NCBI GenBank assembly: GCA_003250155.1
Contig: QKHE01000062.1
Coordinates: forward strand, 1 to 37,822
Source: Chloroflexota bacterium
GTDB lineage: Bacteria > Chloroflexota > Limnocylindria > Limnocylindrales > CSP1-4
DNA length: 37,822 nt
Reading direction: 5' to 3'
The position numbers and the translations under genes are program-made. Of this stretch, positions 2,646-18,615 are shown piece by piece. Within the stretch, counting starts at the first letter, position 1. Each line of letters starts with the position of its first letter. The notes under the pieces are model-generated. The model was given only the letters and a program-made list of their open reading frames with translations. It was not told the origin of the DNA and made no database searches.

Positions 2646-4016
2646 ATGAAGGGAGCCGCCGTGTCACCCTCCGAACCCCCTGTGCTGCGCCGCAGCCAGC
2701 AGCTCGAGCTGTACCGCCGGGCCCTCGGCGTCATGCCCGGCGGCACCGATTCGAACTTCCGCACGTGGGGCGAATCGACGGTCTACGTCGATCGGGGCAA
2801 GGGCGGCCGCGTCTGGGACATCGACGGCAACGAGTACATCGATCTTCGAATGGGCTACGGCCCGGTGATCCTCGGCCACGCTGACGAGCGCGTCGACGAC
2901 CACGTCGCCGACCGGATGCGCCGCGGCGTCAGCTTCTCGCTCACGTCCGAGGACGAGGTCGAGGCCATGGGGCTCGTCAAGGAGCTCACGGGCTGGGTCG
3001 ACAAGGTCCGCATGACGGTCTCGGGCACCGAGGCGACGATGCACGCGATGCGCGTCGCGCGCGCCTACACGGGGCGCACGAAGATCGTGAAGTTCGAGGG
3101 CCAGTACCACGGCGTCCACGACTACGCGCTGATCTCGGTGACCCCGAACGACATGGCCGAGCTCGGTGACGCCGACAACCCGGTCGCGCTGGCCTGGGGT
3201 CGCGGCATCCCCGAAGCCGTGTCCCGGACGGTCATCCCGGCGCGCTACAACGAGATGGCCGTGTTGCGGCGTATCTTCGAGCGCGACGGCGATGACATCG
3301 CGGCCGTGATCGTCGAGCCGGTACTCGGCAACGCCCAGGGCATCCTGCCGCGGCCCGGCTTCCACGAGGAGATGCGGGCCCTGACCCGCGAGTTCGGCGC
3401 GCTGCTGATCTTCGACGAGGTCAAGACAGGATTCCGCTTCGCGCGTGGCGGAGCGGCCGAGTTCTTCGGGGTGACACCGGATCTCGCCACGTTCGCCAAG
3501 GCGATGGGCAACGGCTATCCGGCGGCCTGCTTCGGCGGCACCGACGAGGTCATGTCGGTCCTGCCCGACAAGGTCAGCCACGGCGGCACGTATGCCGGCA
3601 ACCGCGTGGCCGCGGCCGCGGCGGTGGCGACGCTCCGGATCATTCGCGACACGAACGCCCTGCAGACGATCCATGACGTCGGCCGCGCGATCCAGGCGGG
3701 CCTGTCGGAGGTCATCTCGGAGCGCGGGCTGCCGTACGTGTTCACGGGGCACCCGGCGATGTTCGGGATCATGTTCACCGACCAGGCGCCGACGGAGTAC
3801 CGCGACTGGGCCGGCTCGGACCACGAGCTGTACGACGCGGTCGCGGTCGGCATGCACGCCCGGGGCGCGATGCCCGAGCCGGATTCACGCGAGCCGTGGT
3901 TCCTGTGCGAGGCGCATGCCCGTGAGGACATGGTCGATCGCACGGTCTCGATCTTCGCGGACTCGCTCGGCGCGGCCCTCGACGCGCGGGCCCGCGGCGA
4001 GCTGCACCCGGAGTAG
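2646..4016 (+). CDS. Class III PLP-dependent aminotransferase, glutamate-1-semialdehyde aminomutase-like
   Basis: N-term LYRRALGVMPGGTDSNFR, VSGTEATMHAMRVARAYTGRTKIVKFEGQYHG, FDEVKTGFR, PLP-Lys region FAKAMGNGYPAACFGG. ATG 2646, alternative GTG 2661. Confidence 0.85.
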   Translation: MKGAAVSPSEPPVLRRSQQLELYRRALGVMPGGTDSNFRTWGESTVYVDRGKGGRVWDIDGNEYIDLRMGYGPVILGHADERVDDHVADRMRRGVSFSLTSEDEVEAMGLVKELTGWVDKVRMTVSGTEATMHAMRVARAYTGRTKIVKFEGQYHGVHDYALISVTPNDMAELGDADNPVALAWGRGIPEAVSRTVIPARYNEMAVLRRIFERDGDDIAAVIVEPVLGNAQGILPRPGFHEEMRALTREFGALLIFDEVKTGFRFARGGAAEFFGVTPDLATFAKAMGNGYPAACFGGTDEVMSVLPDKVSHGGTYAGNRVAAAAAVATLRIIRDTNALQTIHDVGRAIQAGLSEVISERGLPYVFTGHPAMFGIMFTDQAPTEYRDWAGSDHELYDAVAVGMHARGAMPEPDSREPWFLCEAHAREDMVDRTVSIFADSLGAALDARARGELHPE

Positions 4017-4021
4017 CCGGT

Positions 4022-4038
4022 CCGGCCGCAGCGGCCGG
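4022..4038. terminator. Perfect GC-rich palindrome (ccggccgc-a-gcggccgg) just after the aminotransferase stop
   Basis: 8-bp arms 4022-4029 and 4031-4038 around A4030, 6 bp after the stop codon; no T tract. Folding needs a few inner pairs unpaired to form the loop. Confidence 0.35.
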
Positions 4039-4078
4039 GAATCTGCGGCGACCCGATCAGCTGGGCTAACCTCCCCGC

Positions 4079-5008
4079 ATGCCCGACTTCACCGAACAGC
4101 CCTGGGCGACGATCGCGACGTTCGCCATCGACCAGGTGCTCCCGGCGCTCGTCATCGTCGTCGCGGCGTGGGTGCTGTGGCGCCTCGCACGGGCGTTCAT
4201 CCACCGCGTCGTCCAGGCGCTCATGGATCGCGAGGTCAGCGAGGGCACCGCCCAGGAGCTGTCGTCGCTCGAGGTCCAGAAGCGCATCGAGACGCTCGAT
4301 GTCCTGGTCGGCCGGGTGCTGCGATTCTTCATCATCGTCATCGCCGGCCTGATGATCCTCGGGACGTTCGGGCTGGACATCGGCCCGGCGATCGCCGGGC
4401 TCGGCGTCGTCGGCATCGCCGTCGGCTTCGGCGCGCAGCACCTCGTGCGCGACTACCTCAACGGTGCGCTGATCCTCGTCGAGAACCAGTTCAGCCGGGG
4501 CGACGTCGTCCGCGTCGCCGGGGTGGCCGGCGCCGTGGAGGCGCTCACGCTGCGGCGCACGATCCTGCGCGACCTCGACGGCAACGTCCACACGATCCCC
4601 AACGGCGAGATCACCGTGGCGACCAACATGACCCGAACCTGGGCCCGCGTGAACGAGGACGTGATGGTCGGCTATGGCACCGACATCGGCCGGCTCGCCG
4701 AGATCATCGAGCGCGTCGGCACGGAGCTGGAGGAGGACCCGGAGTGGGGTCCCAGGATCCTCGAGCCGCCGCGCATGCTGCGGGTCGAGCAGCTTGCCGA
4801 CTCGGGCGTCACGGTCAAGGTGCTGGCGACCGTCCGGGCGCCCGAGCGATGGGCCGTCAGCGGCGAGCTCCGGCGCCGGCTGCTGGAGACGTTCGCCGCC
4901 GAGGGCGTCGAGATCCCGTTCCCGCACCGGGTCCTCATCAGCCGGTCGAGCGACGCCGACGGGTCGTCCGGCGACGGTGGCGCCGCCGCGACGGCCGGGG
5001 GCTCGTAG
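4079..5008 (+). CDS. Small-conductance mechanosensitive channel (MscS family)
   Basis: GPAIAGLGVVGIAVGFGAQHLVRDYLNGALILVENQFSRGDVVRVAGVAGAVEALTLRRTILRDLDGNVHTIPNGEI is the canonical MscS pore/beta-domain signature. Confidence 0.93.
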   Translation: MPDFTEQPWATIATFAIDQVLPALVIVVAAWVLWRLARAFIHRVVQALMDREVSEGTAQELSSLEVQKRIETLDVLVGRVLRFFIIVIAGLMILGTFGLDIGPAIAGLGVVGIAVGFGAQHLVRDYLNGALILVENQFSRGDVVRVAGVAGAVEALTLRRTILRDLDGNVHTIPNGEITVATNMTRTWARVNEDVMVGYGTDIGRLAEIIERVGTELEEDPEWGPRILEPPRMLRVEQLADSGVTVKVLATVRAPERWAVSGELRRRLLETFAAEGVEIPFPHRVLISRSSDADGSSGDGGAAATAGGS

Positions 5009-5091: not shown

Positions 5092-7047
<1,956 letters not shown>

Positions 7048-7092
7048 CCCGCGCCCACGCCCGGTCGCGGCTCGGCCGCTGAGGACGGCCGG

Positions 7093-8370
7093 TCAGGCCT
7101 GGGCCGGCAGCGACCTCCCCAGAAGCGATCGGAAGATCGAGCGGACATCCCGGTCGGAGCTCGGGGCCCCGGCCGGCATCGGCGTGGCCAGCAGCTTGTC
7201 CGCGAGGTGCTCGAAGTCCTCGACCACCTTGTGCTTCGGGAACTTCTCGACGACCGTTCGGCCGACATTCGACGCCCACACGAAGTTCATCCCGGCCGAG
7301 CGGATCTCGCCGATCGCCTTCAGGCCGGTCGTGAGCTCGATGTCGGCGACCGACACGCCGCTGTTGGCACGGTTGACGACGAGCCCCAGGCGCTCGCCCA
7401 TGCCGAGCTCGATCATGACCTCCTTGAGCTGGACGGCCGCGCGGATGGCGGGCAGGTCCGGCGTCACCGGAACGAGGATCCGATCCGAGATCGCGAACAC
7501 GCCGAGGTTGACCTCGCTGTACGACGGGTGCAGGTCGACGATGATCGTCCCGACACCGTGGCGGGCCTCCATGATGGATTCGGTGACCCGCTCCGGGTCG
7601 AGGTTGCCGAGGTCGAGCGGGCTATTGGTGAGCGCCACCACGCGGATGCCCGACGCGTGCTGCGCGGCCAGGTCGCTGAGCGTTCGATGCACGTCGCCGG
7701 CCTCTTCGTCGGCCAGCTGGTCGGCGAGCGACCTGCCCATCTTCATGCCCAGCGACAGCGACACGTGGCCGGTCACCGTGTCGGCGTCGACGAGCAGGAC
7801 CTCGCGCTCGCGCCGCAGCTGCAGCACCGCCGCCAGGTTCGTGGCGATCGTCGTCTTGCCGACGCCACCCTTCGGGTTGAAGACCGACAGGATCGGCGGC
7901 GAGGACAGCCAGTCCGCCTGCACGTTGCCGCTGGCGAACACCGTCTCGCCGGCCGCACCGTCACCGACCTGGGCTCGAATCGTCATCGCCTCGAGGCGCC
8001 AGCGCAGGGTCTCGGCGTTGACCGGACGGAGCAGCAGCTCGTCCGAGTCCTCGAGTCCCTCGGTCAGCTCCTCGAGCGCGCCGCCACTGGCGACGTAGAG
8101 GACCGGCAGGGCCCTGCCGAGACCCGCACGAGCTTCGCGGACAAGGGCGATCGTCTCACCCGGCCGCTCTCCGGCATCGATGATCGCGAGGCCCACGTGG
8201 GCTCCGATCGAGAGCATCGCGGCGAGGTCGGCGGCACCGCGCCCCACGATCGCCCCGAAGCCAGCCTCGGCGAAGAGCTCCGGCAGGCCCTCGCGCTCCT
8301 CCTCCGGCAGCGCGAGCGCGATCGTCGTCCGCAGCCCGGGCTCGTCGATGCGCCTGGAACCGGTGTTCAC
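7093..8370 (-). CDS. CpaE/ParA/MinD-family ATPase with N-terminal receiver-like domain
   Basis: Deviant Walker A FNPKGGVGKTTIATNLA, DADTVTGHVSLSLGM; ~120-aa N-terminal receiver-like region. Start overlaps the upstream gene's stop (8367-8370). Confidence 0.85.
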   Translation of the reverse strand: MNTGSRRIDEPGLRTTIALALPEEEREGLPELFAEAGFGAIVGRGAADLAAMLSIGAHVGLAIIDAGERPGETIALVREARAGLGRALPVLYVASGGALEELTEGLEDSDELLLRPVNAETLRWRLEAMTIRAQVGDGAAGETVFASGNVQADWLSSPPILSVFNPKGGVGKTTIATNLAAVLQLRREREVLLVDADTVTGHVSLSLGMKMGRSLADQLADEEAGDVHRTLSDLAAQHASGIRVVALTNSPLDLGNLDPERVTESIMEARHGVGTIIVDLHPSYSEVNLGVFAISDRILVPVTPDLPAIRAAVQLKEVMIELGMGERLGLVVNRANSGVSVADIELTTGLKAIGEIRSAGMNFVWASNVGRTVVEKFPKHKVVEDFEHLADKLLATPMPAGAPSSDRDVRSIFRSLLGRSLPAQA

Positions 8371-9929
8371 GCTGCGGGCTCGCCGGCCGAGACGTAGACC
8401 GTGCCACCGTCATCGGCCGTGATGCGGGTTTCGAAGCCGGGCAGGTCCGGCAGTGCCGCCCGCAGGTCGAGGTCGGGCGCGTGGACGATCGTGAACACGA
8501 AGCTCCCCGGATCACCGGCCATCACGCTGACGTTCTGCACGCCGTCGATCTTGCCGAGGGCGCTCTTGAAGGCGGAGATCCCGGCGACCGTGGCGAGGCC
8601 GGTGACGATCACGCGCTGTCGCCCGCGCTCGGTCGGCTCGTGCCGCGAGCCGGCGTCGCTCTCGTCGGTCGGGGCAATCGCGTCGTTGCCGTCGGTCGTC
8701 GCGAGCCCCTCGAAGGCCTCGGCCTCTGCGGCGGCTGCGGCCTCGGGCCCGAGCGGCTCGGCGGCGGCGTCGGCGGCGGCGGCGGTGACGGTCTCGTCGG
8801 CTGGAGCCGCCGTGACCGCATCGTCGGCCTCGAGCGTCGCCTGGAATGCCTCGTCTCCGGAGCCAGATCCCTCGGTGTCGGCTTCGGCGGCCGTCGTCGC
8901 GCCCTTCGGCGGGTCGGCGGTGTCGTCGCGGAGCCGCGCGGCGGCCCGGCGCACGGCGGGCAGCTCCGACAGGATCGGTGGCGCCGGGGCGCGCTCCGCG
9001 AGCGTCGCGAGGCGAGCCGGATCGCTCTCGGCGAGCAGCTGCTCGAAGAACGACTCCATCTCGCGCTCATAGCCGGCAACGGCGTCCTCGACCTGGGCGG
9101 CCTGGGCGTCGACGTCGCGAGCGTGGCTCTCGAGTTCGCGCTCGAGGGAGTCGCGGCGATCCACGACGCGCTGCTCGCTCTCCTGCTTGATCCGGGCGGT
9201 CTCCGATTTGGCCCACGCATGGATCTCGTCGACGTCATCGTCGGCCCGCTGGCGGAGCGCCGCGGCCTCGTCGGTCGCGCCCGATCGAATGGCCTCGACC
9301 TGGGTGGTCGCCTCGGCGTGCAGCGACGCGATCGTCTCGTCGCGGCTCGTCTCGGCGGCCTCGCGCATCGCCTTCACGAGCCCGGCCACGAGCGGGTTGT
9401 CGCGCCGCGGCGTGCTCGGCGCCGGCTCGGCCACATGGGCCACCTCGGCCACCTCCCGTGCCGCAAGCTGCTCGGCCGCCGGCTGCTGGGCCGGGGGCTG
9501 CTGGGCCGGGGGCTGCTCGGCCGCCGGCTGCGCGTCCTCCTGTGCAGTCGCCTCGGCCGGCGGATCGGCCCGGTCGGTCGTCGGCCACGCCAGCGCGCTG
9601 CCGTCCTTCACGGGCTCACTCGAGCCCGCCGCCTCCATCTCACCGGGCTCGCCGGCCCGATCGCCGACCACGCTCTCGAGCACGACCGCCTCCGATTCAC
9701 CTTCTGCTGCTTCTGCTGCCACCTGGTCGACGCCGTCCGCCGGCTCCGCGGGCGCGGGACGGAACGGGCCTTCGCCGGGGTCACGCCGCCCGGCCGATGT
9801 CGCTGCCTTGCCGCTGTCCGCAACCGACTCCAGCAGCTCGCCCAGGCGCTGCGCGTCCTCGGCGCCCTCGTCGGGCGTCGGGTCGCTTGACCACGGGAGT
9901 CGGAAACCTCGCTTCTGGGTTGTCGACAT
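8367..9929 (-). CDS. Uncharacterised protein: disordered Ala/Pro/Gln-rich N-terminus, central coiled coil, C-terminal HMA/ferredoxin-like domain
   Basis: PAAEQPPAQQPPAQQPAAEQ low complexity; charged heptad-rich DDDVDEIHAWAKSETARIKQESEQRVVDRRDSLERELESHARDVDAQ; C-terminal RVIVTGLATVAGISAFKSALGKIDGVQNVSVMAG. 4-nt overlap with the ATPase gene. Confidence 0.75.
   Translation of the reverse strand: MSTTQKRGFRLPWSSDPTPDEGAEDAQRLGELLESVADSGKAATSAGRRDPGEGPFRPAPAEPADGVDQVAAEAAEGESEAVVLESVVGDRAGEPGEMEAAGSSEPVKDGSALAWPTTDRADPPAEATAQEDAQPAAEQPPAQQPPAQQPAAEQLAAREVAEVAHVAEPAPSTPRRDNPLVAGLVKAMREAAETSRDETIASLHAEATTQVEAIRSGATDEAAALRQRADDDVDEIHAWAKSETARIKQESEQRVVDRRDSLERELESHARDVDAQAAQVEDAVAGYEREMESFFEQLLAESDPARLATLAERAPAPPILSELPAVRRAAARLRDDTADPPKGATTAAEADTEGSGSGDEAFQATLEADDAVTAAPADETVTAAAADAAAEPLGPEAAAAAEAEAFEGLATTDGNDAIAPTDESDAGSRHEPTERGRQRVIVTGLATVAGISAFKSALGKIDGVQNVSVMAGDPGSFVFTIVHAPDLDLRAALPDLPGFETRITADDGGTVYVSAGEPAA
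9466..9537. repeat. Imperfect 15-bp tandem repeat (ggctgctgggccggg-type) encoding PAAEQ/PPAQQ
   Basis: Consecutive ggctgctgggccggg units flanked by related ctgctcggccgccgg units; translates to repeated PPAQQ/PAAEQ on the minus strand. Confidence 0.75.
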
Positions 9930-10123
9930 TTGGCAACGTCCTCGGGGCGTAGTCCGGCGGACTCGGCGGACCGGTTGCTCCGGATCGTCGCGGTGCGGTC
10001 GCGTGTGGGGCAGTCCGCTAGAGGTACCAGCGGCGCAGCCAAGAGGTACCGCTCGCGGTACCGCGACATGTCATCCCGGGGCGCCTCGAGGGCCTCGATC
10101 GGGGGCCGCGCTAGGCTTGCACG

Positions 10124-11191
10124 ATGACCGAGACGATCGAGCATCAGGGCCCGACGACGTTCGATGGGCGCGACGGTCGACTGGACCGCTTCGACCGTGC
10201 GCTCCGCGATCTTCGCATCTCGGTCACCGACCGCTGCAACTTCCGCTGCCCGTATTGCATGCCGAAAGAAGTCTTCGGACGCGACTATGCGTTCCTGCCG
10301 CGGGCGGAGATCCTGACCTTCGAGGAGATCCGTCGGCTGGCCGGGATCTTCGTCGGCCTCGGCGTCCGGAAGCTCCGGGTCACCGGCGGCGAGCCGCTCG
10401 TCCGCCACGATCTGCCCGACCTCGTTGCGATGCTCGCCCCGTTGCGAACGCCGGACGGGCAGCCGGTCGACATCGCCCTGACGACGAACGGCTCCGCGTT
10501 GCGGCGGCTCGCGCGACCGCTGGCCGACGCCGGCTTGCGGCGGATCACGGTCAGCCTCGACTCGCTCGATGACGACACGTTCCGGCGCATGAACGGCGTC
10601 GACTACCCGGTGGCGCGCGTGCTGGACGGCATCGCCGCGGCGCGCGAGGCGGGCCTCACGCCCGTGAAGGTCAACGTCGTGCTGCGTCGCGGCCTGAACG
10701 AGTCGAGCGTCCTGTCGCTCGCGGCCTGGGCCCGCGCCGAGGGCCACGTGCTGCGCTTCATCGAGTACATGGACGTGGGCACGACGAACGGCTGGCGGCT
10801 CGACGACGTCGTTCCGGCGGCCGAGGTCGTGGCGACGATCGACGCGGCCTGGCCGATCGAGCCGCTCGAGCCCGGCTACCGGGGCGAGGTCGCCGAGCGG
10901 TGGCGATACCGCGACGGCCGCGGCGAGCTGGGGATCATCGCATCGGTGACGCGGCCGTTCTGTGGCGACTGCACGCGGGCCCGGCTGTCGGCCGAGGGGA
11001 AGCTCTACACGTGCCTCTTCAGCGCTTCGGGTCACGACCTGCGCGAGCTGCTCCGCGCCGGTGCAACGGACGACGAGCTCACCTCGCGCATCGGGGCCAT
11101 CTGGACGGTCCGCGCGGATCGCTATTCCGAGCTTCGGGCCCAGGCCACCGATCGGCTGCCGAAGGTCGAGATGTTCGCCCTCGGCGGTTGA
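10124..11191 (+). CDS. moaA: GTP 3',8-cyclase MoaA (molybdenum cofactor biosynthesis)
   Basis: Radical-SAM CNFRCPYCM, C-terminal cluster CGDCTRARLSAEGKLYTCLF, VTGGEPLVR, and terminal Gly-Gly (ALGG). Confidence 0.95.
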   Translation: MTETIEHQGPTTFDGRDGRLDRFDRALRDLRISVTDRCNFRCPYCMPKEVFGRDYAFLPRAEILTFEEIRRLAGIFVGLGVRKLRVTGGEPLVRHDLPDLVAMLAPLRTPDGQPVDIALTTNGSALRRLARPLADAGLRRITVSLDSLDDDTFRRMNGVDYPVARVLDGIAAAREAGLTPVKVNVVLRRGLNESSVLSLAAWARAEGHVLRFIEYMDVGTTNGWRLDDVVPAAEVVATIDAAWPIEPLEPGYRGEVAERWRYRDGRGELGIIASVTRPFCGDCTRARLSAEGKLYTCLFSASGHDLRELLRAGATDDELTSRIGAIWTVRADRYSELRAQATDRLPKVEMFALGG

Positions 11192-11493
11192 CCGCGCGGC
11201 GAATCCGGCCGGTTGTCCACCGCTGGTCCACAGGCCGGCCCAAGGTGGTGGACAGATACTGATCACAGCGCCGCAAAGTCGTGGATAACCGCGTTGACCC
11301 GCGGCACGTCGCGCCGATACCGTTCTTCTTGCCCGAAGGGGCCGCCAGGGAACGGGGAACCGAGATCACATCAAGGGACCACGGACCAGGGTCGGTCGCT
11401 TCGGGCGCTTCTGTTACCTGGCCGCGACGGCGTTCCGATGCCGTCCCCGGGTCGGCCCGGCGGGACGCGACCGGCATCCCGGTGTCGGTACTT

Positions 11494-11522
11494 CCGCTGG
11501 GCCCGCAGAAGCCAGCGGGCCC
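11494..11522 (+). promoter_or_regulatory. Two overlapping, mutually exclusive perfect hairpins in the purine nucleoside phosphorylase leader
   Basis: Stem A ccgctgg 11494-11500 / ccagcgg 11512-11518; stem B gggcccgc 11499-11506 / gcgggccc 11515-11522. Confidence 0.4.
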
Positions 11523-11559
11523 CGGCCGTCGACCCCTGGACGTAGCTCTGGAGGCCCGC

Positions 11560-12429
11560 TTGACCGATCTACCCGCGGTCGATCCTTCTGATCCGATTCA
11601 GCCGGCAGCCCAGGCCGCCCGGCTGGACGCGCTCGAGGCTGCCGTCCGCGCCCGCTCCGATCTCGTGCCCGAGCTGGGAATCGTGTTGGGCTCCGGCCTT
11701 GGCAGCCTCGCCGACGACCTCGAGGGCGCCGTGGCGATCGGCTTCGACGAGCTGCCGGGCTGGCCCGCCGCCACGGCGCCCGGCCACGCCGGACGACTCA
11801 TGCTGGGGCGGCTGGGCGGCCGGCCGGTCGTGCTCCTGCAGGGCCGGTTCCACCTCTACGAGGGGAACGATCCCGGCCTGGTCGTCCAGCCCGTGCTGCT
11901 GTTCCGACGTCTCGGGGCCACGGCCGTCGTGCTCACGAACGCGGCCGGCGGGCTCGATCCGGGCTTTGGGCCCGGGACGCTGATGCTGATCAGCGACCAC
12001 ATCAACCTGACCGGCCGGAACCCGCTGGTCGGCCATAACGACGACGACATGGGCGCCCGGTTCACGGACATGACCGAGGCCTGGAGCCCGCGCCTCCGGG
12101 CGAGGTTGCGAGCGGCCGCGATGGCCGAGGGTGTCGAGCTCGCCGAGGGCGTCTACGTCGGCCTCGTCGGGCCCAACTACGAGACGCCGGCCGAGGTCCG
12201 CATGCTGGCGGCGCTCGGTGGACACGCCGTCGGCATGTCGACGGTCGTCGAGTGCGTCGCCGCCCGCTGGGCCGGCCTCGAGGTCTGCGGCGTGTCGCTC
12301 GTCACGAACGCCGGCGCCGGCTACACCGGCGTGCCGCTGACCCACGAGGAAGTGCTCGCGGCGGGCGCCGAGGCCGGGCCCCGGCTGGCGCGGGTCATCC
12401 GGCGCTTCGTGACCGACTTCGAACGGTAG
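11560..12429 (+). CDS. Purine nucleoside phosphorylase
   Basis: LGIVLGSGLGSLADDLEG, PGHAGRLMLGRLGGRPVVLLQGRFHLYEG, VLTNAAGGLDPGFGPGTLMLISDHINLTG, VGPNYETPAEVRML. TTG 11560 is preceded by GGAGG with 5-nt spacing; the ORF upstream to 11281 is unlikely to be coding. Confidence 0.92.
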   Translation: MTDLPAVDPSDPIQPAAQAARLDALEAAVRARSDLVPELGIVLGSGLGSLADDLEGAVAIGFDELPGWPAATAPGHAGRLMLGRLGGRPVVLLQGRFHLYEGNDPGLVVQPVLLFRRLGATAVVLTNAAGGLDPGFGPGTLMLISDHINLTGRNPLVGHNDDDMGARFTDMTEAWSPRLRARLRAAAMAEGVELAEGVYVGLVGPNYETPAEVRMLAALGGHAVGMSTVVECVAARWAGLEVCGVSLVTNAGAGYTGVPLTHEEVLAAGAEAGPRLARVIRRFVTDFER

Positions 12430-12450
12430 CGGCTCGTCGGGGGGTTCCGG

Positions 12451-13305
12451 CTAGGTGACCGGCAGCTCCCGGCCGGCGGCGCGGGCCGCCTTGGCCTTCT
12501 CGGCCCACGCGCCGAGGACCTGGTCCTTGTGCGGCCGGATCGGGCAGTGGCCGTCGCGGTTGTTCATCTCGTCGCAGTAGCCGAGGGGCACGCACTTCGG
12601 GGCGAGGAACGAGCCGAGGAAGGGCGAGACCGCGAAGATCTCGTGGCGGACCTGCTGGAACAGGCGCCGAATCTCCCACTGGGCCATCGTGCACAGCCGC
12701 AAGCCGGACATGTGGATCAGCGCCCGCAGGTTCGTCGTCATCACGAGGTTCGTGCGCGTCGCGTTTGGGAAGACGAACCGGGCGTCCTCGCCGGGGATGC
12801 CGGCCCCGACGAGGTCGGTGTACAGCGCCATCGAGCCCTCGATCTGGTCCTCGTATCGCTCGCGGACCGAGGGTTCGGCGTCGGCGATCGTCTGCGGCAG
12901 CATCGTGGCCGCCTTCTTGAAGGTCACGTAGCGCTGGCTCTGCTGGTCGAACGCCACGCCCGCGCGATGGCGCACGAGCTGGTGCGACAGTGTTCGCGAC
13001 ACGCCGCTGATCCCGAACGTGAAGACCACGTGCTCGATCGTCGAGCCGTGGCCCGATTCGATGACGTTCGAGATCAACCGCTGCATCTTGGCCGGCTCGA
13101 CCTCGCCCTCGGTCGCGCGGCGGAAGATCTCGTCGGGCTGCAGCTCCGAGTAGCACGTCCGGCAGGCGGTATAGATCAGCGGCACGTAATACCGCTCGAC
13201 GATCTCGCGCGACGGGAACAGCAGGGTCGCCTTCAGGCCGAGGTCCGTGCGACCGGGGTTCCGGGGGATGCCGGAGGGCTCACGGGCCTCGGTCGGGACG
13301 GTCAT
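12451..13305 (-). CDS. thyX: FAD-dependent thymidylate synthase
   Basis: ThyX motif RHRAGVAFDQQSQRYV, VFTFGISGVSRTLSHQLVRHR, GHGSTIEH. Confidence 0.95.
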   Translation of the reverse strand: MTVPTEAREPSGIPRNPGRTDLGLKATLLFPSREIVERYYVPLIYTACRTCYSELQPDEIFRRATEGEVEPAKMQRLISNVIESGHGSTIEHVVFTFGISGVSRTLSHQLVRHRAGVAFDQQSQRYVTFKKAATMLPQTIADAEPSVRERYEDQIEGSMALYTDLVGAGIPGEDARFVFPNATRTNLVMTTNLRALIHMSGLRLCTMAQWEIRRLFQQVRHEIFAVSPFLGSFLAPKCVPLGYCDEMNNRDGHCPIRPHKDQVLGAWAEKAKAARAAGRELPVT

Positions 13306-13320
13306 GGAGGGGAGTCTAGA

Positions 13321-16110
13321 TCAGCGCACCGCGGCGTGATCCGCGGCCTCCCGCTGAAGCTCGGGCAGGGTCTCCACCGGCCGGTCCAGGGCATACGCGA
13401 CGGCCTCGTCGAGCGTCAGCGCCGCACCTTCGCGGGCCCAGCGCTGCAGCTGCTCGGGGTCGAGCGAGACGCGGACACTCGGTCGGACCTGCGATTCAAG
13501 CCACGTATCGGTGTACGACGCGAGGCTGGCGCCCGTCGTCTGGGTCAGCGAGCGCGCAGCGCCCCACAGGCGCGCCGCTCGCAGCGGGTCGGCCTCGGCG
13601 AGCGCCTGGGAGCTGAGGTCGTCGAGCAGCATCGTCATGCCCGCCGTGTCACCGGCCACGTAGAAGTGGCGCAGCGCGTGGCGGAACGCGTCGCGCGCCT
13701 CGTCGAGGTCGTCGGCGCGGATGAGGGCGCCGCCGAGCATATGCAGCGCCCACGCCTCCATCGTCCGATCGCCCTCGGCGCGGAACAGCTCGAGGGATTG
13801 CCGGAAGCGCTCGGCGCCGGCGTCGTCGAGCTGCTTGAAGTACTGCTGCTGGCCGAGGCCCCACAGCACGTTCGCCTCGCCGCGCCGGTCGCCGAGCTCG
13901 CGATACAGCGCGAGCGCCTCCTCGAGGGCGATCGTTCCCTCGCCGGCGGGATCGATCGTCGCCTCGGAGGTCGCGGGGTCGTCCGGGACGGTGAAGGTGA
14001 ACGAGTAGTTGTAGAGCGCGTTGGCGAGCTCGCCGCGATCGCCGAGCGAGCGCCAGATCTCGACCGCCTCGCGGTAGTACGGCCGCATCGCCTTCACGTC
14101 GCCCTGCCACCAGCACACGCCGCCGACCGCCTCCATGAGCCGAGCCCGCAGGGCCGGCTCGGTCCGTGACCACGGCGCGTCGGCCATCGCCTCGAGGCGT
14201 CGACGCGCCTCGTACAGGTGCCCGCGCTTCTGCCAGAACCGCCAGACCGCGAAGCCGAGGCGGATCGCCAAATCGGCGTCAGCCCGCTCCAGTGCCCAGT
14301 CGAGGGCGGCGCGGATGTTGTCGTGATCGCGCTCCAGGCGGTCGAGGAGCCCGCCCTGGTCCGCGCCGGCCAGCTGCGGCGCGATCTCCTCGGCCAGGGT
14401 CATGAACCAGCGTGCGTGGCGATCGCGGATCGAGTCGGCCTCGCCGCGACCCTTGAGCTGCTCGGCGGCGAACTCGCGGATCGTGTCGAGCATCTGGAAG
14501 CGCGGCTCGCCCGGCGCGTCGACGGTCCGGATGAGGCTCTGGCCGACGAGCGATTCGAGTCCGTCGATGACCTCCATGCCGAGCTCCTCGGCCGGGCCGC
14601 AGACCGCCTCGGCGGCCGGCAGGTCGAAGCCGCCCTCGAAGACCGACAGGCGGTCGAGATGGCGCCGGCAGTTGTCGTCGAGGATGTCGTAGCTCCAGGC
14701 GATCGCGCCGCGCAGGGTCTGCTGGCGCTCCGGAAGGTCGCGCGAGCCGGCCGACAGCAGCGCGAGCTTCGTCTCCAGGCGTGACAGGATCGCATCGGGC
14801 GAGAGGAGCTTGACGCGCGCCGCGGCGAGCTCGATCGCGAGCGGCATCCCGTGGAGCCGGGCCACGATCGCCGCGACGGCGGGGGCGTTCTCGCCCGTCA
14901 CCACGAAGTCCGGCCGCACGCTCGCCGCCCGGGCGATGAACAGCCGGACCGCCTCGTAGGTCGACAGCGTCGCGGGATCCAGCGATCGCTCGCTCGCCGA
15001 CAGCTGGGCGAGCTCGAGGGCGGGCATGCTCGATGGGTCGGGCGGGACCGGCAGCCCCGGCACCGGGTACTCCTGCTCGCCCGAGACCCGGAGCGGCGCC
15101 CGGGAGGTGACCAGGGCCGACACGCCGGGCGAATCCCGCAGCAGGTTCGCCACGACGGGCCCCCCGGCGACGACCTGCTCGAAGTTGTCCAGGACGAGCA
15201 GCACGTGCTTGTCGACCAGCCACTCCCGCAGCGTGCTGCCGGAGTCGCTGGTGCCGCTCTCGGCGAGGCCGATCGCCGACGAGATGCGCGGCTCCAGCAG
15301 CGCGGGCTCGCGAACCGATTCGAGGGCCACGAAGAAGACGCCGTCAGGGAACCGCTCGCTCTCGTCGGCCGCGACCTGCAGGCCGAGGCGGGTCTTGCCG
15401 GTGCCGCCGGGCCCGGTCAGGGTCACCAGGCGGTTGGTCGCGAGCAGTCGACGCGCCTCGGCCAGCTCGTGCTCGCGGCCGACGAACGAGGTCAGCTGTG
15501 TCGGCAAGTTGTTCGGTCGCGCGTCGAGCGACCGGAGCGGCGGGAACTCGAGGGCCAGACCCGCGGCGACGACCTGGCACAGCGGCTGCGGCTCGCGCAG
15601 GTCCTTCAGCCGGTGACTGCCGAGGCCGCGCAATGACACGCCCTCGCCGAGATCGGCTCCGGCCAGTGTCCGGATCGCGTCCGACACGACGATCTGGCCC
15701 CCGTTCGCGGCCGCGGCGATGCGGGCCGCGCGGTTGATGTCCAGCCCGACGAGACCGCTCGCCGTTGCGCGGGCCTCGCCGGCATGCAGGCCCATCCGGA
15801 CGCGGACCTCACCGTCCTCCGGCCAGGCTTCGTTCTGCAGTGCCCGCTGCGCCTCGATGGCGGCGGCCACGGCCTCGCTGGAGCTGTCGAACAGGACGAA
15901 GAACGAGTCGCCCTCGGTGCTCTGCTCGCGTCCGCCGTGGGCCTCGAAGGCCGTCCGCAGGAGCGCCGAGTGGCGGTCCAGGACCCGTGCGTAGGCCTCG
16001 GTTCCAAGGCGCTCCTGGAGCCTCGTGGAGCCCTCGATGTCACTGAACAGGAAGACGCGAGTGGAGGCTCCGCCGTCCTTCGCCGTCGCCGGGACGTCGT
16101 CCTCGGCCAT
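13321..16110 (-). CDS. Class III adenylate/guanylate cyclase fused to an NB-ARC/AfsR-like ATPase domain and C-terminal TPR-like repeats
   Basis: FLFSDIEGSTRLQERLG, TEGDSFFVLF, GLDINRAARIAAAANGGQIVVS (cyclase residues retained); FVGREHELAEARRLL, LTGPGGTGKTRLGLQVA, VLLVLDNFEQVV (ATPase); helical repeats to the end. ATG at 16110; the longer ORF to 16653 overlaps the next gene out of frame. Confidence 0.9.
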   Translation of the reverse strand: MAEDDVPATAKDGGASTRVFLFSDIEGSTRLQERLGTEAYARVLDRHSALLRTAFEAHGGREQSTEGDSFFVLFDSSSEAVAAAIEAQRALQNEAWPEDGEVRVRMGLHAGEARATASGLVGLDINRAARIAAAANGGQIVVSDAIRTLAGADLGEGVSLRGLGSHRLKDLREPQPLCQVVAAGLALEFPPLRSLDARPNNLPTQLTSFVGREHELAEARRLLATNRLVTLTGPGGTGKTRLGLQVAADESERFPDGVFFVALESVREPALLEPRISSAIGLAESGTSDSGSTLREWLVDKHVLLVLDNFEQVVAGGPVVANLLRDSPGVSALVTSRAPLRVSGEQEYPVPGLPVPPDPSSMPALELAQLSASERSLDPATLSTYEAVRLFIARAASVRPDFVVTGENAPAVAAIVARLHGMPLAIELAAARVKLLSPDAILSRLETKLALLSAGSRDLPERQQTLRGAIAWSYDILDDNCRRHLDRLSVFEGGFDLPAAEAVCGPAEELGMEVIDGLESLVGQSLIRTVDAPGEPRFQMLDTIREFAAEQLKGRGEADSIRDRHARWFMTLAEEIAPQLAGADQGGLLDRLERDHDNIRAALDWALERADADLAIRLGFAVWRFWQKRGHLYEARRRLEAMADAPWSRTEPALRARLMEAVGGVCWWQGDVKAMRPYYREAVEIWRSLGDRGELANALYNYSFTFTVPDDPATSEATIDPAGEGTIALEEALALYRELGDRRGEANVLWGLGQQQYFKQLDDAGAERFRQSLELFRAEGDRTMEAWALHMLGGALIRADDLDEARDAFRHALRHFYVAGDTAGMTMLLDDLSSQALAEADPLRAARLWGAARSLTQTTGASLASYTDTWLESQVRPSVRVSLDPEQLQRWAREGAALTLDEAVAYALDRPVETLPELQREAADHAAVR

Positions 16111-16538
16111 CAGTGCCGCACGGACTCCGTGACCTGCCGGAGCCGGACCGCGACGCCCCGCAGGATCGCGAGGGTCAGCGCCGGCTGCTCGAGCAGCACC
16201 TGCTCGAAGTCCCACGACGCCAGCGCCAGGCAACTGGTCGCCTCGTCGGCGGCGACCATCGCATTGCGCGGCTGGCGATCGAGCACCGACAGCTCGCCGA
16301 AGAACTCGCCGGGGCCGAGGTGGGCGACGATGGTCCCGTCGCGCACGACCCGAACGCGGCCCGAGATCACGACAAAGAACCCAGTACCGATCTCGCCCTG
16401 GCGAGCGATCACGTGGCCAACGGGGAAGTCGACCTGGATGGCGCGTCCGGCGAGCGCTGTCAGGCCGGCCTCGTCGATGCCCTGAAACAGCGGGCAGGAC
16501 GCCAGCAGCTCTTCGCGCCGGTCCTGGGTCAGCGTCAT
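16110..16538 (-). CDS. Stand-alone cyclic nucleotide-binding (CRP-like CNBD) protein
   Basis: CPLFQGIDEAGLTALAGRA...GEIGTGFFVVISGRVRVVRDG...LGPGEFFGELSVLDRQPRNAMVAADEATSCLAL. No HTH follows. Stop overlaps the cyclase ATG by one base. Confidence 0.9.
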   Translation of the reverse strand: MTLTQDRREELLASCPLFQGIDEAGLTALAGRAIQVDFPVGHVIARQGEIGTGFFVVISGRVRVVRDGTIVAHLGPGEFFGELSVLDRQPRNAMVAADEATSCLALASWDFEQVLLEQPALTLAILRGVAVRLRQVTESVRH

Positions 16539-16646
16539 CAGGTTCTCCAGCCTCCCATTGGGTGCCAGCGATGCTGCGCGATGGGGCCACAGCCGTCAAC
16601 TCGGGTGCGACAATCTTCATGACAGCAGGATCCGAGGAGGACGTGG

Positions 16647-17081
16647 ATGGCAACCCGAGACGAGATCGCCGACGCGATCGCGAGTCTGAGCCTGTTCGCC
16701 GACCTGTCCCGCCCGCAGCTGCTCGGCGTGGCCAGTCGCTTCGAGGAGGCGTTCTTCCCGAAGGACGCCCGGGTCCTCCGGCAGGGGCTCACCGGCTCCG
16801 GCTTCTACGTGATCCTGGACGGCGAGGCCGACGTCGTCGCCGACGGCCTGAAGCGGGCCACGCTCGCACGTGGCGATTTCTTCGGCGAGGTCAGCATCCT
16901 GCTCGGCGAGCCGCCCATCGCGGACGTGGTGGCGACCCGGCCGCTGCGCTGCATCGTCCTCGGCGGACCCGACGTGGAGCCGTTCCTGATCGACCATCCA
17001 CGGGTGCTGTACCGGATGCTCCAGACGCAGTCGCGTCGCCTCCGCGCCGCCAACGAGCGGACCGGTCAGCTCAGTGAGTAG
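16647..17081 (+). CDS. Second stand-alone cyclic nucleotide-binding domain protein
   Basis: LSLFADLSRPQLLGVASRFEEAFF...GSGFYVILDGEADVVADG...LARGDFFGEVSILLGEPPIADVVATRPLRCIVL. RBS gaggagg upstream. Confidence 0.9.
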   Translation: MATRDEIADAIASLSLFADLSRPQLLGVASRFEEAFFPKDARVLRQGLTGSGFYVILDGEADVVADGLKRATLARGDFFGEVSILLGEPPIADVVATRPLRCIVLGGPDVEPFLIDHPRVLYRMLQTQSRRLRAANERTGQLSE

Positions 17082-18615
17082 CCGATCGAAGGCGGCGGAC
17101 GGCGAGCGACCGTTCCCGCCGGGCGAGTACCCGATCGTCGTCGTCGGCTCCGGGCCCGGGGCGCTCCAGACGACCTACTTCCTGTCACGGCTCGGAATCG
17201 AGCACGCCGTGATCTCGGCCGACCCGGAGCCGGGGGGGATGTTCCGCCACTGGCCGTTCTTCCAGCGCCTGCTGTCGTGGACCAAGCCATATGCCGGTCC
17301 GGATCGCCACACCCGGGCCTTCGAGCGCTGGGACTGGAACAGCCTGCTGGCCCGGGAGCCCGAGCTGCGAGGGATGGCCGTCGAGTTCATGGACGGCACG
17401 TCCGACTTCCCCTCGCGTCCGGAGATGGAGGCGAGCCTGCAGGCGTTCACCGAGCGCGCCAAGCTGCCCATCCGTCACGACTGCACGTGGACCGGGACGC
17501 GGCACGAGGAGACCGCGGACGGCGATCGCTTCGTCCTCGAGACGACCGACGGCGAGTACCGCTGCCGGTTCGCGATCATCGCCGTCGGGGTCGCCGAGCC
17601 GTACTCGCCGACCGTGCCGGGCATCGAGCTGGCGGTGCACTACGCCGACACCCGCGACGCGTCGACCTATGCCGGCAAGCGGCTGTTCATCATCGGCAAG
17701 CAGAACTCGGGCTTCGAGCTCGCGACCGGCCTGCTCCAGTGGGCTGCCAGGATCACGCTCTCGTCGCCCTCGCCGGCCCGGACCTCGATCGAGGCCGGAT
17801 CGCTGATGGGCGTCCGGGCGCGCTACGTCCAGCCGTTCGAGGATTCCGCGCTCGGCGGCGGTGTCGACATCCTGGCGGCGAGCCTGAAGGAGATCAGCCG
17901 AACGCCGGATGGCGCGCTGCGCATCGACCTGAACCGCAGCGACACCTCGATGCCGCTGACGGTCGTGGCCGACGAGGTGATCGCGGCGACGGGGTTCACC
18001 TGCCCGCTGGTGGACCTCCCGGCGCTCGGCGTGGCGACGTTCGGCCACTCGAAGCTGCCGGCGCAGACGGACTTCTGGGAGAGCGCGACCGTGCCCGGGA
18101 TCTACTTTGCCGGCACGATCACCCAGGGCTGGGCGGGCCTCAAGAAGCACGGGATCTCGTCGTATTCCGGGGCGGTCCAGGGTTTCCGCTACAACGCCCG
18201 CATCCTCGTCCGGCACATTGCCGAGCGGCATTTCGGGATCGTCCTCGACCGGCCCACGATCGCGCCCGCCGACCTGCGCGACTACCTCTTGGCCGAGGCG
18301 ACCTCAGCGCCCGAGCTGTGGCATCAGAAGGCCTACCTGGCCAGCGTCGTGACCCTCGACCCGGAGGCCGGCATCGTCGACGAGGGGATCCTGCCGCTGA
18401 CGACATTCCTCGACGGTGGCGCGCCCGAGGCCATCGCCGTGACGCTCGAGGCCGACGGGACGAACATCTTCCCGGTCATCTACGTCCGCCACGGCGGGCG
18501 GCAGGAGGAGCACGTCCTCGAGCCCGACCCGCTGCACGACTACGAGGGCGGGACGTACCGTCGCGCCGTCGGGGCGATCCTCGACCGGGTCGTCGCCGGC
18601 GCCTCGGCCGCCTGA
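17074..18615 (+). CDS. FAD/NAD(P)-binding flavoprotein oxidoreductase (pyridine nucleotide-disulfide/monooxygenase-like)
   Basis: N-terminal Rossmann YPIVVVGSGPGALQTTYFLSRLGIEHAVISADPEPGGMFRHWPF, second nucleotide motif IGKQNSGFELATGLL, VIAATGFTCP. GTG 17074 overlaps the upstream CNBD gene by 8 nt. Confidence 0.85.
   Translation: MSSRSKAADGERPFPPGEYPIVVVGSGPGALQTTYFLSRLGIEHAVISADPEPGGMFRHWPFFQRLLSWTKPYAGPDRHTRAFERWDWNSLLAREPELRGMAVEFMDGTSDFPSRPEMEASLQAFTERAKLPIRHDCTWTGTRHEETADGDRFVLETTDGEYRCRFAIIAVGVAEPYSPTVPGIELAVHYADTRDASTYAGKRLFIIGKQNSGFELATGLLQWAARITLSSPSPARTSIEAGSLMGVRARYVQPFEDSALGGGVDILAASLKEISRTPDGALRIDLNRSDTSMPLTVVADEVIAATGFTCPLVDLPALGVATFGHSKLPAQTDFWESATVPGIYFAGTITQGWAGLKKHGISSYSGAVQGFRYNARILVRHIAERHFGIVLDRPTIAPADLRDYLLAEATSAPELWHQKAYLASVVTLDPEAGIVDEGILPLTTFLDGGAPEAIAVTLEADGTNIFPVIYVRHGGRQEEHVLEPDPLHDYEGGTYRRAVGAILDRVVAGASAA

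Follow-up and report, generated by a model that had tools for sequence, protein, structure and literature searches.

A lone cyclic-nucleotide-binding domain without its phosphate arginine, paired with a flavoenzyme and linked to a cyclase-STAND gene in Chloroflexota

The stretch of DNA considered here (the window) is contig QKHE01000062.1 of the Chloroflexota bacterium assembly GCA_003250155.1, 37,822 nucleotides read on the forward strand, and the subject is a cluster of four genes at its positions 13321 to 18615. On one side of a short gap is a class III cyclase fused to a STAND ATPase, preceded by a protein that consists of a cyclic-nucleotide-binding domain (CNBD) and here termed CNBD-A; on the other, a second such protein, CNBD-B, is followed by a flavoprotein. 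The main point of this note is the uniform loss of the phosphate-binding Arg in CNBD-B together with its obligate pairing with a single flavoenzyme. The features are:

13321..16110, minus strand: cyclase-STAND protein P0001, 929 aa; class III cyclase homology domain (CHD), NB-ARC/STAND ATPase and TPR
15556..16059, minus strand: CHD of P0001, about residues 18-185; D24, D68, Asn126 and Arg130, with S64/G119
14431..15498, minus strand: NB-ARC/STAND ATPase region of P0001, about residues 205-560; Walker A GPGGTGKT, Walker B-like LLVLDNF
16110..16538, minus strand: CNBD-A, P0002, 142 aa, stand-alone CNBD
16263..16298, minus strand: phosphate-binding cassette of CNBD-A, GELSVLDRQPRN, with conserved Glu82 and Arg91
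16539..16646, no strand: divergent intergenic region of 108 bp with partly conserved blocks
16647..17081, plus strand: CNBD-B, P0003, 144 aa, stand-alone CNBD fold without the phosphate Arg
16884..16925, plus strand: altered cassette of CNBD-B, GEVSILLGEPPIAD; Glu81 kept, Pro90 replacing Arg, invariant Asp93
17074..18615, plus strand: flavoprotein P0004, 513 aa, GTG start, FAD- and NAD(P)H-binding, like the flavin-containing monooxygenases (FMOs), with an extra C-terminal domain

The end of CNBD-A and the ATG of the cyclase-STAND gene (at 16110) share 1 nt, in the sequence TGATG, and the frames for CNBD-B and the flavoprotein share 8 nt. A check of the open reading frames, with Pfam for the domains, bears out what had been predicted from the letters of the sequence, that is a cyclase fused to an NB-ARC-like ATPase and overlapping CNBD-A by 1 nt, a stand-alone CNBD-A of about 142 aa with no DNA-binding domain, and, at 108 bp and divergent, a CNBD-B gene that overlaps the flavoprotein gene by 8 nt. 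Pfam recognizes Guanylate_cyc, AAA_22 and TPR_12 in P0001, cNMP_binding alone in both CNBD-A (E 5.5e-20) and CNBD-B (E 2.2e-12), Pyr_redox_3 in the flavoprotein (E 3e-30), and a DNA-binding domain in none of CNBD-A, CNBD-B and the cyclase-STAND protein. A longer cyclase frame, started by TTG and extending up to 16653, was rejected as a mere open frame that would engulf CNBD-A. As the four genes are kept with the same layout in relatives, they are not chance frames of GC-rich DNA.

The site of the phosphate Arg in CNBD-B is Pro90, and it is Pro in 75 of the 76 intact homologues. Around it Glu81 and Ser83 are each kept in 75 of the 76, Arg101 in 74, and Ala92 and Asp93, two and three residues past Pro90, in every one (76/76 each); position 136, which corresponds to Ser128 of CRP, is Asn, Thr or Ser in 74. 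All CNBD-Bs are in one clade (support 100), and a cassette Arg is present in each of the six further CNBDs that the window's genome encodes. An AlphaFold2 model of CNBD-B is a clean CNBD (mean predicted local distance difference test score, pLDDT, 91.9), for which the nearest Foldseek matches are the CNB-B domain of PKA RI-alpha (E 6e-11) and CRPs. With CRP- and PKA-type CNBDs it shares the fold, the Gly and the Glu, and it differs from them in the lost Arg and in having no helix-turn-helix (HTH) or kinase. Since Arg is replaced by Pro in essentially every member, CNBD-B is probably not a canonical receptor for a cyclic nucleoside monophosphate (cNMP), and from its residues canonical binding is unlikely. 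Even PycTIR, a receptor for cUMP, retains the Gly, Glu and Arg of the cassette (PMC11224242).

The original prediction had both CNBDs reading a cNMP. That part of it stands for CNBD-A, in which the Gly-Glu and phosphate Arg of the cassette (Glu82, Arg91) are kept in 30 of 30 homologues, and not for CNBD-B; loss of the pocket Arg, proposed as a check on the two together, is found in the redox-coupled CNBD and not in its counterpart. The position of CRP Ser128 is Thr or Ser in 22 of 29 CNBD-As. A hint of cGMP from a Glu at this position was dropped, since with the conserved Arg and Pro as anchors the residue there is Thr. In the window's lineage CNBD-A is a putative cNMP receptor of canonical appearance, sharing the Gly-Glu...Arg cassette of CRP- and PKA-type CNBDs and differing from these in standing alone without HTH or kinase.

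The constancy of the gene arrangement was assessed by using the flavoprotein alignment to scan genomes, one for each species; this gave 80 named loci, nearly all of them Chloroflexota metagenome-assembled genomes, and 81 with the window. In all 79 loci where the upstream sequence allows a judgement, the CNBD-B gene immediately precedes that of the flavoprotein, mostly with an overlap or a few bases between them. An orthologous cyclase-STAND gene adjoins the pair in 68 of 75 judgeable loci, being divergent and upstream in 48 (26 with CNBD-A between) and co-directional and downstream in 20, where the order is CNBD-B, flavoprotein, cyclase. That the genes belong together, as originally proposed, is thereby upheld; the feared lack of co-occurrence was not seen. 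With whole-genome cut-offs of >300 bits for the flavoprotein and >100 bits for CNBD-B, and with a few CNBD-A genes scoring just over 100 bits excluded from the CNBD-B count by position, both are found in 26 of the 61 related genomes, and neither is found outside these. The flavoprotein occurs in 37 of 400 genomes of the phylum and is limited to the window's class and two other families; the lineages with the module, uncultured and from soil and groundwater, are the class Limnocylindria and a second lineage that includes Dormibacterota. An informative genome is G019 (L215, 6101-14733), in which the genes for purine nucleoside phosphorylase (PNP), ThyX, cyclase, CNBD-A and LysE are syntenic and CNBD-B and the flavoprotein are both absent. 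This pattern indicates that CNBD-B and the flavoprotein behave as a unit and that CNBD-A and the cyclase can exist alone, and by retaining just the latter two G019 also supports their linkage. From the linkage counts and G019 together, CNBD-B, the flavoprotein and the cyclase-STAND protein are the core, with CNBD-A accessory.

Some individual occurrences merit separate mention. Beside ThyX in L064 (G026, 1458-2819) there is, in the syntenic place, an apparent relic of the flavoprotein C-terminus with a divergent half of the cyclase. In L098 (CSP1-4, 7135-13672) CNBD-A, CNBD-B and the flavoprotein are co-directional and opposite a non-orthologous cyclase-AAA_16 protein, an arrangement that is either independent recruitment or chance. 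The same cluster, in sequence that is Chloroflexota-like, is present in records titled otherwise, L114, L137, L139 and L145 (Bauldia), L133 (Armatimonadetes) and L112 (Thermomicrobiales), whose non-Chloroflexota titles are probably wrong.

The flavoprotein is an FMO-like enzyme with two dinucleotide-binding domains and not a thioredoxin reductase. Its GSGPG and GKxxS motifs, for FAD and NAD(P)H, are near-invariant in the flavoprotein alignment (A1), its sequence neighbours are ArsO, YpdA and FMO-like enzymes, and the top fold match by TM-score (0.65, for a model of moderate confidence with pLDDT 70) is the FMO of Stenotrophomonas maltophilia (SmFMO); the extra C-terminal domain is of about 120 aa. 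A redox CxxC is present in 0 of 81 homologues and no CNBD-flavoprotein fusion was found, on which thioredoxin or disulfide reductase kinship is rejected, and the likeness to CNBD-thioredoxin-reductase fusions that had been suggested for this gene pair is not supported. A search of plasmids for relatives returned only distant FMO/ArsO-like matches and ordinary Crp/Fnr matches. The best match, a Nonomuraea protein 33% identical to the flavoprotein, has DWNSLL and GKxNSxFE motifs in common with it, and no CNBD or cyclase is visible nearby; its record (NZ_LT559118.1, L214) sits in the plasmid collection, and the length of 11.85 Mb suggests a chromosome. Kinship to ERFAD is no more than a lead, from a motif resemblance drawn partly via this homologue. 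Shared with the ERFAD/FOXRED2-like FMOs (PMC3040216, PMC12833800) and with the S. maltophilia enzyme (4a9w) are Rossmann domains for FAD and for NAD(P)H, a second motif of GKxNS/A-F-E type and an extra C-terminal domain; the window family has no CxxC. Unlike ERFAD/FOXRED2, the flavoprotein is bacterial and obligately linked to CNBD-B.

Whether P0001 is an active cyclase is uncertain from its residues. The metal-binding D24 and D68 are present and invariant in 67 of 67 readable linked homologues, and Arg130 is similarly present and invariant in the linked cyclases. The transition-state Asn126 is also present in P0001; of the 67 scored linked homologues 39 have His instead and two have Thr or Val, with Thr in L072, a close relative with a flavoprotein 89% identical. 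The purine-specifying Lys/Asp pair is absent from P0001 (S64/G119) and variable across the family. Given the change to His in so many, a good number of the linked cyclases may be inactive while CNBD-B persists. Asn is kept at 16 of 25 loci with CNBD-A as against 9 of 41 without it (Fisher p 0.0014, phylogeny being ignored), a hint that would fit a working cyclase where the canonical receptor is present. A tree was built with unlinked paralogues too, taken both from the genomes of the linked cyclases and from related ones, and in it almost all linked cyclases group as a single clade (57 rows, support 100), which has two rows without pair linkage, one from G059 and one from G019. The co-directional cyclases form a single sub-clade (support 100) inside it, so that the linkage is old and has outlived a rearrangement. 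To our knowledge, few proteins of CHD-NB-ARC type have a known pathway. The Mclx proteins of Mycobacterium (Rv0386, Rv1358 and Rv2488c; CHD, AAA/NB-ARC and LuxR) likewise have an N-terminal class III cyclase followed by NB-ARC, and two of the three have losses of the transition-state Asn and substrate-selectivity residues similar to those in the family of P0001 (PMC4452763). Unlike these, P0001 ends in TPR, Pfam finding no LuxR HTH at its C-terminus, and its gene has CNBD and flavoprotein genes as linked neighbours. Elsewhere in the window's genome (G000:C52, L067) a CNBD at 3990-4244 on the minus strand and a further class III cyclase domain, at 6549-7070 on the plus strand, are about 2.3 kb apart.

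The reading to which we give a probability of roughly 55% is that CNBD-B is a subunit dedicated to the flavoenzyme, with a part in its regulation or assembly, and that the cyclase-STAND protein is the signalling half of the same module. The effector half would be the FMO-like enzyme and its small partner, translated together and, we infer, in a complex. Without its grip on phosphate, CNBD-B would read another ligand, for which something nucleoside-like would fit, or a protein partner. Above this pair the cyclase-STAND-TPR protein would act as a stimulus-responsive hub, its cyclase domain perhaps active and perhaps not, with signalling running from it to the flavoenzyme, and in the window's lineage CNBD-A, as putative cNMP receptor, would serve that hub.

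Several points weigh against this. It is from gene linkage that a complex between CNBD-B and the flavoprotein is inferred. Where the trypanosomatid pocket considered below requires Glu (PMC10959531), CNBD-B has Ser83, which leaves the precedent incomplete. At five judgeable loci there is no cyclase in the vicinity, and at two more it lies elsewhere or is non-orthologous, so that the cyclase is not an obligatory part. Loss of Arg is no strict bar to cNMP, as Popeye-domain proteins show, whose divergent cassette binds cAMP; Asp93 or Arg101 of CNBD-B might form an alternative phosphate site.

Two special cases of the subunit reading differ in what the altered pocket would accommodate. One has CNBD-B as a bacterial receptor of a nucleoside or another non-cyclic ligand controlling the flavoenzyme. 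Trypanosomatid PKA regulatory subunits have lost the phosphate Arg, with a Glu taking its place, and bind purine nucleosides (PMC10959531); CNBD-B similarly has the Arg replaced and the ribose Glu kept, its base-contact position is also retained, and Val, Thr or Ile prevails where a kinetoplastid Val aids the response to inosine (PMC10959531). It lacks, however, their second ribose-binding Glu (PMC10959531; the PKA A202 position, Ser83 in CNBD-B), and differs further in that Asp93 is new and in being a bacterial protein of a single domain. PNP and ThyX are beside the cluster in the window lineage, but they were not found near Dormibacterota-type loci, so their synteny may be incidental. A nucleoside receptor seems to us less likely than not. 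The other special case, about which we are doubtful, has a ligand-free docking subunit with its pocket filled by side chains of its own or of a partner. Loss of the Arg and strict co-occurrence with the flavoprotein would suit it, but E81, P90, A92, D93 and N/T136 are near-invariant over about 50% divergence, and a scaffold might need less.

In the circuit originally proposed, a STAND-controlled cyclase makes a cNMP for both CNBDs, one of which gates the redox enzyme while the other feeds back on the cyclase. For CNBD-B, as the gate, this would take a non-canonical pocket that binds cNMP without the phosphate clamp. The strong link of the cyclase to CNBD-B and the flavoprotein, the invariance of metal Asp and catalytic Arg in the cyclases, and the ribose Glu and the Asn, Thr or Ser at the base-contact position of CNBD-B would be in keeping with this, but the Arg that is kept even in PycTIR (PMC11224242) is Pro in 75 of 76 CNBD-Bs and 39 of the 67 scored linked cyclases have His for the transition-state Asn, and we consider a single shared messenger unlikely. 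If unrelated genes were kept together merely by slow rearrangement, the flanking PNP, ThyX, LysE and aquaporin genes should be syntenic too, as in genus and family they are; that the linkage holds across classes, with changed flanks and in a second gene order, and that CNBD-B and the flavoprotein are missing jointly, makes this very improbable. A role in anti-phage signalling like that of Pycsar (PycC cyclase with PycTIR or PycTM) is hardly credible. A class III cyclase adjoining a CNBD protein is shared with Pycsar, and the CNBDs and cyclase domain give weak to moderate matches to PADLOC Pycsar models. The cluster, however, carries no fusion of a CNBD with a toxic effector, is outside a defence context and has a CNBD-B without Arg; in the window lineage its inheritance is vertical and syntenic among housekeeping genes (moaA, PNP, thyX, lysE, aquaporin), and its presence is clade-specific rather than sporadic. 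A defence identity was rejected on the missing CNBD-effector fusion and the housekeeping setting.

The module is conserved and real, a variant built of known parts, and no description of it was found in the open-licence papers searched. CNBD proteins are routinely annotated as receptors of cAMP or cGMP. A clade that keeps the fold and the ribose Glu while the Arg is uniformly replaced, and whose genes go with a single flavoenzyme and a single family of cyclase-STAND proteins, would offer a clean example of a bacterial CNBD that signals by something other than cNMP. The fixed partner set of this CHD-NB-ARC protein makes its output testable, and the parts of the module are small, apparently soluble proteins whose expression should be easy. 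The bolder view that CNBD-B founds a bacterial class of Arg-less CNBDs, sensing a non-cyclic nucleoside-like ligand or a partner and controlling an FMO-like flavoenzyme below a hub whose cyclase domain has in part turned into a non-catalytic sensor, is speculative.

Within the 108-bp gap, an alignment of 9 loci has conserved blocks at GATGCTG, CGTCAACTCG (minus-strand TTGAC) and ACAATC, which are probably divergent promoters; a scan of the gap for sigma-70 consensus promoters and terminators found nothing. The surroundings are housekeeping-like, with ThyX, an aquaporin and an aldolase recognized by NCBIfam and a LysE translocator by Pfam, and, from translations only, a moaA-like protein, PNP and an ABC transporter. 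In the window's genome CNBDs with the cassette Arg also occur at the C-terminus of two long MFS-transporter-like frames (G000:C130, L068, and G000:C81, L069), and homologues with both the MFS part and the CNBD, confirmed by Pfam, are present in L147 (9529-11181) and L151 (5064-6698), near flavoprotein loci that are without an adjacent cyclase.

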